Below, in pieces: positions 44,996 through 53,516 of a stretch of 64,000 nt of DNA. The notes below the pieces were generated by a model. It saw only the letters and a list, made by a program, of their open reading frames with translations, had not been told where the DNA came from and searched no databases. Every line of letters starts with the position of its first letter. Position 1 is the first letter of the stretch. The position numbers and the translations under genes were made by a program. Origin of the DNA: Nitrosospira multiformis (GTDB lineage Bacteria > Pseudomonadota > Gammaproteobacteria > Burkholderiales > Nitrosomonadaceae); contig NZ_QAOK01000006.1 of NCBI RefSeq assembly GCF_003050865.1, positions 1-64,000 of the forward strand. Direction: 5' to 3'.

Positions 44996-45455
44996 TCATG
45001 TTCTCGTAATATCCTGGAAAAACTTAATATAGTCTTTTTAAGGACCGGTCACAAGAGAACTCTCTTGACACTGCTCCAAACTGGATTGGTATGTCAATGA
45101 TATTAGAGGTATCAGTGGGACGAGGACAATCACATTATCCTCTCAAAGCAGCGTCTTTCCTTACTATACGATTTTTATGTTTTCCATATACCCCCAAAAA
45201 TACCCCCAATTGTTAGCCGCTAGGGGCCTGGCTACTCAAGAATCTCGTGCGGCGCAATGGCCAACTGCCCGGTGTGGCGTTTATAGAATCGAGGTATACA
45301 GTATCAGACATGTACGTTTCAACATGAAGCTTTACATGCCGTCGGATTTGGCTGAGCACGTGTTCAGTCGATGGGAATTTGCGGAGCGCTGCCATTGGAG
45401 TTCCGGCTGGAGGATTGGAGCGGATTAGCTCATCCGTAAATTCTATAGGATTGCC
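44996..45455. other. Left-end non-coding region of the tRNA-Ala island
   Basis: Contains no supported gene. It holds the integrase-arm-like repeat at 45187-45206 and, at 45117-45133, GTGGGACGAGGACAATC, which resembles the 3' end of tRNA-Ala (GTGGAGACGAGGAGGATC) with one gap and two changes. Confidence 0.45.
45187..45206. repeat. Left copy of the island-end 20-mer (two ATACCCCC, 12-bp spacing)
   Basis: ATACCCCCAAAAATACCCCC is 19/20 identical to 53307-53326 upstream of the integrase gene. Two ATACCCCC boxes spaced 12 bp look like arm-type integrase-binding sites. Confidence 0.75.
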
Positions 45456-45641
45456 TTAATGATTTTCCGCCTTGGGTGCAACGAAGCAAATCTTTATTTC
45501 AGCTTCAGGCTCTCGACCATGTTCCGCAAGATAACGCGATAACGATTCATTCCGCCTTCCTTCATGCCAAACCATGACTGGCAAATGCGCCCTGTTCTCC
45601 AGTTCCTTCTCCAATCGCGCCACTCTCTGTTCCAGACTCAT
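45456..45641 (-). CDS. Small island protein, hypothetical
   Basis: A 61-residue protein starting with a coiled-coil-like helix (MSLEQRVARLEKELENRAHL), then VMVWHEGRRNESLSRYLAEH and a short beta end. Unrecognised, but the helical start is common in small phage and island proteins. Its start overlaps the stop of the preceding gene by four bases (ATGA), showing coupling. Confidence 0.6.
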   Translation of the reverse strand: MSLEQRVARLEKELENRAHLPVMVWHEGRRNESLSRYLAEHGREPEAEIKICFVAPKAENH

Positions 45642-45892
45642 CGTTTTTCCTCCAGTGCGTGGATGCGCCGTTCCAGTTCAATTATCTCAAACAGCTTGCG
45701 CATTTCGCCCAACACGTACACAAGCCGCGTTCCGTCTTGGGTATCTATTGCGCCTCCTCGCATGTCCCGATATACCCTCGCCATTTCTCGGCGTACGGCT
45801 TCCAGGTCGTGCAGATTGAGCTTGGGGGAGGGTAGAACTGTGACAGCAGAATTTTCGATGGCTAGCGCGCTTTTTTCTTTGCTTTTCGACAT
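45638..45892 (-). CDS. Small island protein, hypothetical
   Basis: An 84-residue charged, mostly helical protein (LNLHDLEAVRREMARVYRDM, then LVYVLGEMRKLFEIIELERR). It resembles small helical proteins of P4-like islands but has no known role. AGAAGG 7 bases before ATG 45892 is a good ribosome-binding site. First gene of a two-gene unit. Confidence 0.65.
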   Translation of the reverse strand: MSKSKEKSALAIENSAVTVLPSPKLNLHDLEAVRREMARVYRDMRGGAIDTQDGTRLVYVLGEMRKLFEIIELERRIHALEEKR

Positions 45893-46009
45893 TATGAAAC
45901 CTTCTAATGAAGCACCATTATCGTTGAACGAAGGAAAGGTGATACGTCCCTATCCAAGCTACCACCGGAAAGAGATGGCAATAGATAGATTGGTAGTTCT
46001 AGAAAGGTG

Positions 46010-46143
46010 TACGCCCGGCGGGTCAATTGGTTTTCGATAAGTGGCCTGATTGGTACGCCAGGCGGGTCAATTCCGGGAATGCTAAAAATAATTGGTACGC
46101 CCAGCGGGTCAATCATCGCGCAATTGATACGCTCGGCGTACCA
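46010..46143. repeat. Iteron-like repeats, three direct and one inverted
   Basis: TACGCC-[c/a]-[g/a]-GCGGGTCAAT occurs at 46010, 46054 and 46096 (spacings 44 and 42 bp), and a diverged copy is inverted at 46121-46143 at the 3' end of the next gene. The spacing of about four helical turns keeps sites on one face of the DNA. Could be a replication or regulator binding array. Confidence 0.7.
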
Positions 46144-46631
46144 CCATTTATGGCGTTTGCATCGGCAACTTGCAACGCCGTCCCAGTACCTGAAAGAAGG
46201 GGCACCACTTTTAGTTTTGGCATGGCGGGCAATGGCTCGTTTTTCTTCCAAGTGCCCCTTGGGCTACTGGTAGACCGTACGTCCAATTTTCCCTTGCAAT
46301 CGTCTATGGCATAAAAGGTCAATCCGTAGAGGCTTGCCTTGTGTCTGCCGCCCTGTCGAGTGACTTCCACCCAATCGCCTTCCTTCAGCTCTTTAAGGGC
46401 CTTGTTGAGCGTTTCCTTTGACTTCCATCCTCTGCCTCGCATTATTGTCCATGCAGCGCACAAATCGCCGTTGTTATCCCCTTTGTATTGGGCCAACAGA
46501 TCAATTAACAATTTGACCGCATGGGCTGAAAGGTGGGTAAATCCCCGGCTCCTTATGACTGCAAAAGGCAGGGGCGCGAAGCCGCCACCCTCTCGTTTTA
46601 TTTGGGAACTTTTAAATCGGTTTTTTCCCAT
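46113..46631 (-). CDS. Island helix-turn-helix protein, hypothetical
   Basis: A 172-residue protein. Residues 20-110 look like a winged-helix fold (FAVIRSRGFTHLSAHAVKLL, WTIMRGRGWKSKETLNKALK, DWVEVTRQGGRHKASLYGLT), as in small replication- or regulation-linked proteins of P4-like islands in betaproteobacteria. The C-terminal tail is Gly/Ser/Thr rich (PLLSGTGTALQV, NGGTPSVSIAR) and ends inside the iteron-like array. Function unknown. Confidence 0.7.
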   Translation of the reverse strand: MGKNRFKSSQIKREGGGFAPLPFAVIRSRGFTHLSAHAVKLLIDLLAQYKGDNNGDLCAAWTIMRGRGWKSKETLNKALKELKEGDWVEVTRQGGRHKASLYGLTFYAIDDCKGKLDVRSTSSPRGTWKKNEPLPAMPKLKVVPLLSGTGTALQVADANAINGGTPSVSIAR

Positions 46632-46634
46632 CGC

Positions 46635-52026: not shown

Positions 52027-52041
52027 GCGAAGGTTTTGATG

Positions 52042-53253
52042 TCATGCCGTCTTATGCAAAGGTATCACGTCAGCCCCAGCCTCCAGCTTGTCCAGATAGT
52101 CCGCCCAGTGCTGCATCATGCGCTTGCGCTCAGGTAGGTATTCCGCGTAGTTGTATGCCGCCCGCACGCCATCCCGCTCAGCATGCGCCAGTTGCCGCTC
52201 AATAGCGTCCCGGTTCCAGCCTTGCTCGTTTAAGAGGGTAGATGCCATGTGTCGGAAACCATGCCCTACAAACTCACCTTTATAACCTAGCCGATGTAAC
52301 GCAGCATTTATCGTGTTGTCGCTCATTGGTTTCGTTGTGGTGCGCGCACTCGGGAAAACATATTTTCCAGCACCGGAAATACAGTACAACTCACGCAGTA
52401 TTGCTACGGCTTGAGTGGAGAGTGGGACTATATGCAATGCATTCATTTTCATGCGCTTAGCAGGTATGCGCCATTCTGCTTTATCCAAGTTGAACTCGCA
52501 CCATTCCGCTTTGCGTAGCTCGCTGGGTCTCACAAACAACATGGGAGCTAAGCGTAGGGCATAACGGGTGGAATATGTCCCGCTGTACCCATCAATAGCG
52601 CGTAGCAATTCGCCTATGGCCTTCGGATCGGTAATAGTGGGGTAGTGTTGCCTGTTCGGCGGTGGAAGAGCACCGCGCAGATCAGTAGACGGATCACGCT
52701 GTGCCCGTCCGGTGGCTATGGCATAGCGGAAAACTTGCCCACAATTCTGGTGAACACGGTGCGCGGTATCCAGGGCACCTCGGCTTTCAACACGACGTAG
52801 CATAGCAAGCAACTCTGGTGCGGTTATCTCCCCAATAGGACGCGCACCGATCCACGGGAATGCGTCAACCTCCAGCCTTCGAATCACCTTGCATGAGTGT
52901 GTGTCAGCCCAATTGGGAGCATGTTTCATAAACCATTCACGGGCGACAATCTCAAAACTGTTTTCAATCACTGCCACACTCGCCTCCTTTTGTGCCTTCT
53001 TTACCGCGCCAGGGTCTGCCTCATTCGCCAACAGTTTGCGCGCCTTTTCGCGTCGCTCCCGTGCGTCTAAGAGACTTACGTCTGGATATACCCCCAAAGC
53101 CAGTAGCTTTTCTACCCCCGCAAAGCGATATTTGAGCCGCCAATACTTCGCGCCGTTCGGTTGCACCAGTAGATACAAACCGCCACCGTCCGATAGCTTC
53201 TGCGGTTTATCGCTCGCTTTCGCCTTTTTTACTTGCAGGTCAGTCAGTGCCAT
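52042..53253 (-). CDS. P4-type tyrosine-recombinase integrase
   Basis: Site-specific integrase of 403 residues. It has the DUF4102 arm-binding domain (MALTDLQVKKAKASDKPQKL, GGGLYLLVQPNGAKYWRLKY), a SAM-like core-binding domain, and the catalytic domain. The catalytic residues are Arg in MLFVRPSELRKAEW, His/Arg in GHGFRHMAS, His in QLAHAERD and Tyr in AAYNYAEYL. ATG 53253 follows AAGGG; the upstream in-frame 21 codons lack family match. It lies next to tRNA-Ala, whose 3' end is the expected integration site. Confidence 0.95.
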   Translation of the reverse strand: MALTDLQVKKAKASDKPQKLSDGGGLYLLVQPNGAKYWRLKYRFAGVEKLLALGVYPDVSLLDARERREKARKLLANEADPGAVKKAQKEASVAVIENSFEIVAREWFMKHAPNWADTHSCKVIRRLEVDAFPWIGARPIGEITAPELLAMLRRVESRGALDTAHRVHQNCGQVFRYAIATGRAQRDPSTDLRGALPPPNRQHYPTITDPKAIGELLRAIDGYSGTYSTRYALRLAPMLFVRPSELRKAEWCEFNLDKAEWRIPAKRMKMNALHIVPLSTQAVAILRELYCISGAGKYVFPSARTTTKPMSDNTINAALHRLGYKGEFVGHGFRHMASTLLNEQGWNRDAIERQLAHAERDGVRAAYNYAEYLPERKRMMQHWADYLDKLEAGADVIPLHKTA

Positions 53254-53277
53254 TTTTACAACCCTTTCTAGTCGTTT

Positions 53278-53326
53278 GGGGGTATCGCTTCCGCATTCTT
53301 TGCTGCATACCCCCAAAGATACCCCC
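53278..53326. repeat. Right-end integrase arm-type sites
   Basis: ATACCCCC boxes at 53307 and 53319 (12-bp spacing) form the 20-mer shared with 45187-45206. A third box is inverted (GGGGGTAT) at 53278-53285. They lie directly before the integrase start, so the enzyme may also regulate itself. Confidence 0.75.
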
Positions 53327-53356
53327 TTTTGAGGGTAGATTTCAATAGATTTCTTA

Positions 53357-53440
53357 GGACTGTATTGGACAAGAAAAAACCCACAAGCGTTTATTCATGT
53401 GGGTTTCATGGACTCTACTGGACTACTTTGGACTGGTTAG
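53357..53440. promoter_or_regulatory. Spaced GGACT repeats, candidate core attachment region
   Basis: GGACT recurs at 11-bp steps (aGGACTgtattGGACaag at 53357, then tGGACTctactGGACTactttGGACT at 53410-53435), ending at the tRNA 3' terminus. Such regularly spaced pentamers next to a tRNA and integrase suggest recombinase binding. The crossover point is not proven. Confidence 0.45.
53373..53406 (-). terminator. Intrinsic terminator of tRNA-Ala
   Basis: Read on the minus strand: AAACCCACA, loop, TGTGGGTTT, then TTTCTT. It is a 9-bp perfect stem with a T-run, 35 bp past the tRNA 3' end. Confidence 0.85.
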
Positions 53441-53516
53441 TGGTGGAGACGAGGAGGATCGAACTCCCGACCTTCGCATTGCGAACGCGACGCTCTCCCA
53501 GCTGAGCTACGTCCCC
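53441..53516 (-). tRNA. tRNA-Ala (anticodon CGC)
   Basis: A complete 76-nt cloverleaf on the minus strand, CCA encoded. The acceptor GGGGACG/CGTCTCC has the G3:U70 wobble pair that defines alanine tRNAs. Anticodon loop TTCGCAA gives CGC. Its 3' end is the integration target of the adjacent island. Confidence 0.96.

Follow-up and report, generated by a model that had tools for sequence, protein, structure and literature searches.

The window analysed here is a 64,000-nucleotide stretch of Nitrosospira multiformis DNA (contig NZ_QAOK01000006.1, positions 1 to 64,000). In its right-hand part, a gene for a tyrosine integrase (52042-53253) lies beside the 3′ end of a tRNA-Ala(CGC) gene (53441-53516), both on the minus strand, as described in an original prediction of an integrative island made from these letters. 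At the far end of the region, CAGTGGGACGAGGA at 45113-45126 can be set against TGGTGGAGACGAGGA at the tRNA-Ala 3′ end. This tRNA-end-like sequence beside a left-hand octamer pair had been placed at 45117-45133, outside the left copy of a repeated 20-mer; it is real and extends over 45113-45133. From 45116 to 53440 the distance is 8325 bp, so that the size first given, 8.2 kb, was about right. With an integrase next to a tRNA 3′ end on one side and a copy of that tRNA end on the other, the region has the arrangement of a tRNA-targeted integrative island. We consider it very likely that it is an 8.3-kb island whose own DUF4102 (P4-like, IntSXT-subgroup) integrase inserted it at the 3′ end of tRNA-Ala(CGC).

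The assignment of the integrase rests on an N-terminal Arm-DNA-bind_3 domain (92.7 bits), which we take to be the domain formerly called DUF4102, together with the core-binding and catalytic domains Phage_int_M (132.7 bits) and Phage_integrase (82.1 bits), all above cut-offs. Residues R240, H329, R332, H355 and Y365, which presumably have catalytic roles, are among the invariant columns in an alignment of 25 integrases. The same genome carries three more integrases of the family, at C22:28538-29776 (60% identity), C16:1809-2999 (39%) and C30:12058-13266 (38%). The G+C content is 46-53% in 2-kb windows between 44 and 54 kb and 56-58% in those from 53 kb rightwards; some other parts of the 64-kb window are as low as the island stretch.

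The two 20-mers near the ends each hold two copies of ATACCCCC separated by four bases (Table 1). The recurrence of the right-hand 20-mer with one change had been noted before; the second copy is there, at 45188-45207, one base to the right of the 45187-45206 first given. When up to three mismatches were allowed, these were the only two sites in the window, and 100 shuffles of the window gave zero matches. In the 3,293,337-base genome, allowing A or G at the variable base, there are exactly these two occurrences of the 20-mer and none on the other strand. Across both ends ATACCCCC is present five times, four as TACCCCCA and one as TACCCCCT, with an inverted copy at 53277-53286; this site and a further inverted octamer at 53330-53337 are additions to the original prediction. 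The left pair lies about 76 bp from the distal core and the right pair about 134 bp from the tRNA end, the same distances as in many relatives, including at other tRNAs. Their spacing, as in relatives, and their likeness in form to the published IntS motif (GATACCAMCA) make arm-type sites the most likely identity of the 20-mers.

Octamer pairs at fixed distances are found well beyond this island. Among 67 loci with an integrase next to a tRNA, which include this window and some mutually close relatives and are not all independent, 45 carried a pair of octamers, spaced by 12 bp and alike in at least seven of eight letters, near -134 relative to the tRNA 3′ end (box -146 to -118), compared with 0 to 11 of the 67 in nine control boxes. 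The letters differ among integrases, mostly within the form T[AG]CCnnnA. A left pair was detected in 13 of the 30 loci with room for one, with a tRNA-end copy 75-78 bp to its left in 12 of these 13. In a second sample, drawn from 29 fetched stretches with 24 tRNA-adjacent integrases (23 of them having the right pair), the left pair was present in 12 of 23 loci, and the best core match lay at 75-77 bp in all 12, although 60-91 bp were allowed; 7 of these 12 cores scored above the 95th percentile of random places. Locus L130, with a left pair and no core, was excluded from the counts, as were L377, L380, L383, L386 and L388, fresh left ends whose core scores fell within the random range. A search of viral contigs gave 19 loci, 9 of them with less than 100 bp upstream of the match. 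The earlier reading of the 20-mers as arm sites that mark the two ends of the island is thus borne out by the ends of a relative (G019, below), by the fixed distances from the tRNA in many elements and by the IntS motif. Both island ends, their conservation and the octamer pairs at fixed distances can be read directly from the sequences.

The left core is one nucleotide short, and an ungapped search for direct repeats of the tRNA missed it for that reason. This shortening turned out to be a family trait. In a first set of 12 elements, the distal copy lacked one nucleotide in 10 and two in one, and was ungapped in L108; among seven clear cores of the second sample, one nucleotide was missing in six and two in one. 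Altogether, the distal copy is 1-2 nucleotides short in 18 of the 19 elements with a clear core, mostly at or next to acceptor position 70 of the standard tRNA numbering. Since short copies are seen across many tRNAs and hosts, the 'divergence' of the left repeat is, for the most part, normal anatomy rather than decay. One possibility is a crossover near the CCA in which the element-borne copy is one base shorter. Sublocations within tRNAs have reportedly been treated by Williams in 2002.

These data bear on the idea that the island is a fossil, with ends still legible in an element that is no longer mobile. The left core reads CAG, not TGG, at 45113-45115; the integrase of the G019 relative carries stops, and a remnant at the same tRNA in G007 seems, by reading, to be split by an insertion sequence. 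Conversely, the copy in the window has an open integrase, intact 20-mer pairs and an AlpA-like gene, and the nucleotide missing from its left core is missing in the family as a rule. We therefore regard loss of mobility as possible but doubtful. The earlier suggestion that excision may have been lost because the left repeat is diverged finds no support, given the short copies in 18 of 19 elements and the open integrase.

Comparison with relatives supports an element inserted by its integrase at tRNA-Ala(CGC). G019 has a counterpart of 45115-45227 (81%) at 4.2 kb from this tRNA, and its element carries its own 20-mers at both ends. Its right end matches the integrase and tRNA of the island in the window, the cargo between the ends differs, and its integrase is related (81% in the best segment) and broken by stops. 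In G032 and G038, from another genus of the same family, the left end is kept between tRNA-Lys and tRNA-Ala, which are about 780 bp (G032) and 440 bp (G038) apart, with no integrase listed there. We searched for an empty site by comparing each flank with 101 genomes, from which 30 stretches were fetched. The four nearest relatives (G003, G007, G008 and G012) keep both flanks: the left flank runs to 44334 and the sequence resumes at the tRNA. Between the two lie 3.4 to 19.4 kb of other DNA, so that none of these sites is exactly empty. In eleven further loci tRNA-Lys(CTT) lies 0.4 to 13.1 kb upstream of tRNA-Ala(CGC), and the gap in the window is 19 kb (34416-53440); an Rfam scan at gathering scores returned the two tRNAs only. 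Other DNA at the site in relatives and the varying distance between the tRNAs therefore identify tRNA-Ala(CGC) as a hotspot in the genus where elements stack.

Several observations weigh against the proposed island and its ends. None of the stretches compared joins the left flank to the tRNA, so no exactly empty site was found. In the left core, CAG replaces TGG, the CCA letters, at 45113-45115; this is the sole divergence peculiar to the left core of this island. Left pairs were found in only the 13 of 30 and 12 of 23 loci given above, so in many elements the left end is lost, has moved or lies outside the examined DNA. A control with reversed octamers gave left pairs in 9 of 30 loci of the first sample and 1 of 23 of the second. 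The weight of the left-pair evidence rests on the fixed core distance.

The end of the flank shared by the four nearest relatives, at 44334, also raises the question of whether the boundary is at 44335, with the ParE/Phd toxin-antitoxin genes (44379-44995) part of the same element. We judge this very unlikely, since the conserved left-end sequence, the arm pair and the tRNA-like core all start at 45113-45118. Moreover, G008 and G012 have matches to 44336-44429 and 44336-44414 about 0.6 kb past the flank, next to other elements; in G021 and G011 the ParE/Phd relatives stand elsewhere relative to the tRNA.

Other features were noted around this tRNA site. Genes for a ParE toxin and a Phd/YefM antitoxin (44379-44995) lie directly left of the island. 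A cupin/JmjC-like gene and flank (42992-44334) adjoin the tRNA site in the four nearest relatives; in other members of the genus with a match, this gene is on a separate contig or far away, e.g., about 70-88 kb (G014, G021, G022). Locus L075 of G021 (oriented 9308-9357 and 17533) carries, 8.2 kb away from the tRNA, a 50-bp tRNA-Ala copy (96%) in which the missing nucleotide is present; it may belong to an island with another type of att that uses this site too. Locus L063 of G007 (oriented 3216-5340) is a decayed element at the same tRNA with an interruption that resembles an IS3-family transposase, by reading only. L119, L120, L124 and L127 (three Paraburkholderia loci and one Caballeronia locus) each have another N-terminal integrase match, about 440 bp closer to tRNA-Ala(CGC).

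The variation in octamer letters was then compared with that of the integrases. A pair was called clear when seven of eight letters were equal between the copies and seven of eight matched the anchor letters, and such pairs were present within 330 bp upstream of 82 of 168 distinct integrases. For the 163 integrases with a full box, 80 pairs were found, compared with 0 or 1 in five other boxes (154-168 loci) and 3 of 163 on the other strand; the reversed box gave 25 of 163 and, as it keeps repeats, is not a clean control. When 397 protein columns were compared in the 71 integrases whose class had four or more members, residues 39 (1.47 bits of excess information) and 46 (1.16 bits) showed the strongest association with letters 5-6, the next column reaching 0.73 (residues are numbered from the Leu of LTDLQ; add 2 to count from the ATG start). 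Over the 82 integrases, letter 2 is best tracked by column 48, letter 5 by 39 and 46, letter 6 by 39 and letter 7 by 41. The integrase of the island has K39, R41, E46 and L48. An AlphaFold2 model (mean pLDDT, 86) has strands at residues 34-42 and 45-54, the register of which would put residues 39, 41, 46 and 48 on one face of a hairpin.

We propose, with reasonable but not high confidence, that many DUF4102 integrases bind a tandem octamer, T-[A/G]-C-C-n5-n6-n7-A, repeated 12 bp apart and read by these four residues of the arm hairpin, so that with the spacings and the short-copy rule both ends of an element could often be located from its integrase. Under the predicted code, R at 48 would specify G as letter 2, with mostly A otherwise; at 46, E would specify C, R would specify G and Q would specify A as letter 5; at 39, K would specify C, D or N mostly T, and S or A would specify A as letter 6; and R at 41 would specify C as letter 7.

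The rules for letters 5-6 were fixed before new loci were obtained. The new set comprised 92 integrases, 91 with enough upstream DNA and 38 of those with a clear pair. The two-letter prediction was right in both copies in 22 of these 38 and in one copy in 6; it failed in 5, and none was made for 5. Letter 5 was correctly given by residue 46 in 36 of 36, or in 33 of 33 without the integrases at least 90% identical to members of the first set (no two of these 33 reach 80% identity in the arm domain). Rules for letters 2 and 7 were added later and tested only on a further set of 13 integrases, of which 6 had a clear pair (five CC sites and one GT site); in each of these 6, at least one copy had all four letters as predicted.

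Shared ancestry of integrases and their sites might by itself account for the link between residues of the hairpin and letters of the octamer. Integrases with the same site are often related, and the sets come mostly from one phylum, presumably Pseudomonadota. However, letter 5 changes 32 times in a tree built from the C-terminal part of 114 integrases, with residue 46 following it in 12 of 12 (G/R), 13-14 of 15 (A/Q) and 13-14 of 16 (C/E) independent supported pairs, with none the opposite way. Residues 39 and 46 are also outliers among 397 columns that share the same ancestry. Ancestry as the whole explanation is thus highly improbable. E, R or Q is found at position 46 in 110 of the 114 integrases, 106 of which fit the code. 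The whole arm domain was not more strongly associated with letters 5-6 than the part from residue 106 onwards (p = 0.69); only single columns were.

Other results limit the code. All four misfits among the 110 integrases have E46 and TACCACG sites, in which letter 5 is A. The two-letter prediction was wrong in 5 of 33 cases and right in only one copy in 6, and R39 is ambiguous. In the 53 new integrases without a clear pair, the predicted letter was present in the best weak pair in only 19 of 44, and clear pairs were found in only 82 of 168, 38 of 91 and 6 of 13 integrases. The detector needs a TACC anchor, which makes other site forms invisible to it and limits what letters 1, 3 and 4 can reveal. 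The IntA integrase of E. coli K-12 (R39, R46) is not covered by the code, because its repeats, TAGGCCCA, are not of the TACC form.

The code makes predictions for defined integrases. For the island in the window, changing residues 46/39 to R/D is predicted to move the specificity from TACCCCCA to TACCGTCA, and changing residue 48 to R is predicted to move it to TGCCCCCA. The latter octamer is also the predicted site of HPI (K39, R41, E46, R48), and TACCAACA that of HAI7 (S39, R41, Q46, L48).

The N-terminal beta-hairpin of the integrase would hold octamers at both ends: two at the left and, at the right, two in direct and one or two in inverted orientation. The catalytic domain would exchange strands close to the CCA, within the tRNA end. 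Excision, with the AlpA-like protein as its possible factor, would fuse both ends into an attP of about 260 bp. The location of the right-hand sites just upstream of the integrase start suggests that the integrase may be autoregulated, as in KplE1. At the tRNA-Ala hotspot, such elements both stack and decay.

The cargo is a two-gene restriction-modification set (Table 1). One open reading frame (ORF) combines HSDR_N_2 (95 bits) and N6_Mtase (101 bits), and the next encodes Methylase_S (39.8 bits). A nuclease and a methylase in one chain with a separate S subunit are features of type IIB (BcgI/BsaXI-like) enzymes, and by this likeness the cargo enzyme would cut on both sides of its site. A methylation-associated defence system (MADS) was considered and rejected, as MAD2 (306 of 720 bits) and MAD5 (106 of 400 bits) were below the NCBIfam cut-offs. 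Among the other island ORFs scanned, integrase aside, no PADLOC or NCBIfam family matched, and scans with Pfam and PHROGs revealed, among the island ORFs submitted to them, no relaxase or conjugation family that would make the island conjugative or mobilizable. No plasmid relatives of the cargo were found in the plasmid collection at the 'near' setting. The AlpA-like protein has matches in 26 of the other loci searched. The 243-aa ORF was searched without its first residue. In both G015 and G022, three copies of the iteron-like repeat lie beside an ORF related to the 172-aa one, and three more about 1.8 kb off.

Table 1. Features of the island, its ends and its target (window positions)
Feature	Position	Strand	Remarks
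Distal (left) core: tRNA-Ala 3′ end copy, one nucleotide short	45113..45133	+	island left boundary ~45116
Left end conserved in element family	45115..45227	+	81% to G019; 77% to G032 over 45118-45231
Left arm-type pair ATACCCCC-AAAA-ATACCCCC	45188..45207	+	
Small ORF, 61 aa	45456..45641	-	no family above cut-off
Small ORF, 84 aa	45638..45892	-	46-47% relatives in loci L111, L113
Iteron-like repeats GGTACGCCNGGCGGGTCAATT, three direct and one inverted	46008..46142	.	beside 172-aa ORF
172-aa ORF	46113..46631	-	recurs in other related-integrase loci; no family above cut-off; winged-helix-like by reading only
104-aa ORF	46771..47085	-	35% relative in L099
AlpA-like protein, 77 aa; candidate excision factor	47085..47318	-	PF05930, 22.3 bits, cut-off 21
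243-aa ORF from inner ATG	47580..48311	-	no family; 62% relative in L165
Fused restriction (HSDR_N_2) and N6-adenine methylase protein, 715 aa	48413..50560	+	
Specificity subunit (Methylase_S), 480 aa	50584..52026	+	
Tyrosine integrase, 403 aa, Arm-DNA-bind_3 domain	52042..53253	-	no internal stop
Inverted arm-type site TGGGGGTATC (GATACCCCCA on - strand)	53277..53286	-	between integrase start and right pair
Right arm-type pair ATACCCCC-AAAG-ATACCCCC	53307..53326	+	134 bp from tRNA 3′ end
Further inverted octamer, 7/8 (TACCCTCA)	53330..53337	-	
tRNA-Ala(CGC), target gene	53441..53516	-	3′ end at 53441

The island itself is ordinary, one more case of a known type, and the arm-site code is possibly the new part. 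Among the matches listed in open-licence papers, none gave a family-wide code that links residues to letters. The code and the short-copy rule, both computational, appear to be the more interesting outcome. Many tRNA islands carry DUF4102 integrases, and the far ends of such islands are frequently difficult to locate. If true, the link between hairpin residues and arm letters, together with the fixed distances at either end, would allow the ends to be calculated, and the code would show how integrases change their arm specificity. A systematically short distal copy raises a mechanistic question on the place and manner of strand exchange.

Several known systems resemble parts of the island. Its restriction-methylase protein and adjoining specificity gene are arranged as in BsaXI/BcgI-like type IIB systems; RM.BsaXI (PDB 8w0p) is its best PDB match, but over residues 563-638 only. 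In a fold search, the arm domains of HAI7 (PDB 3ju0) and HPI (3jtz, 3rmp) were the closest solved relatives of that of the integrase (63% and 57% identity). The title of 3rmp refers to attP recognition by P4-like integrases; these are structures of single integrases, not a family-wide comparison. DUF4102 is known to bind arm sites (PMC8138268). In E. coli K-12, KplE1 IntS is an integrase beside a tRNA that is autoregulated and whose promoter is overlapped by attL (PMC2951348). Like the integrase of the island it is adjacent to a tRNA, and its upstream DNA carries TTTTACCCA repeats; unlike it, it has R39/E46, its repeats contain TACCCA and are not called by the pair detector, and its element is a prophage remnant. 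A close parallel for the sites is IntS of ICEMlSymR7A, which has the arm motif TGKTGGTATC in five copies within a 283-bp attP, all five being needed for efficient integration (PMC11963761). ICEMlSymR7A is a 502-kb conjugative element with a winged helix-turn-helix (wHTH) excision factor, whereas the island measures 8.3 kb and has no recognised conjugation genes. Letters 5-6 are AM there and CC here. The reverse complement of the IntS motif, GATACCAMCA, has the T[AG]CCnnnA form, the five arm motifs described there compare with five copies of ATACCCCC here, and the attP of 283 bp compares with about 260 bp predicted for the island.

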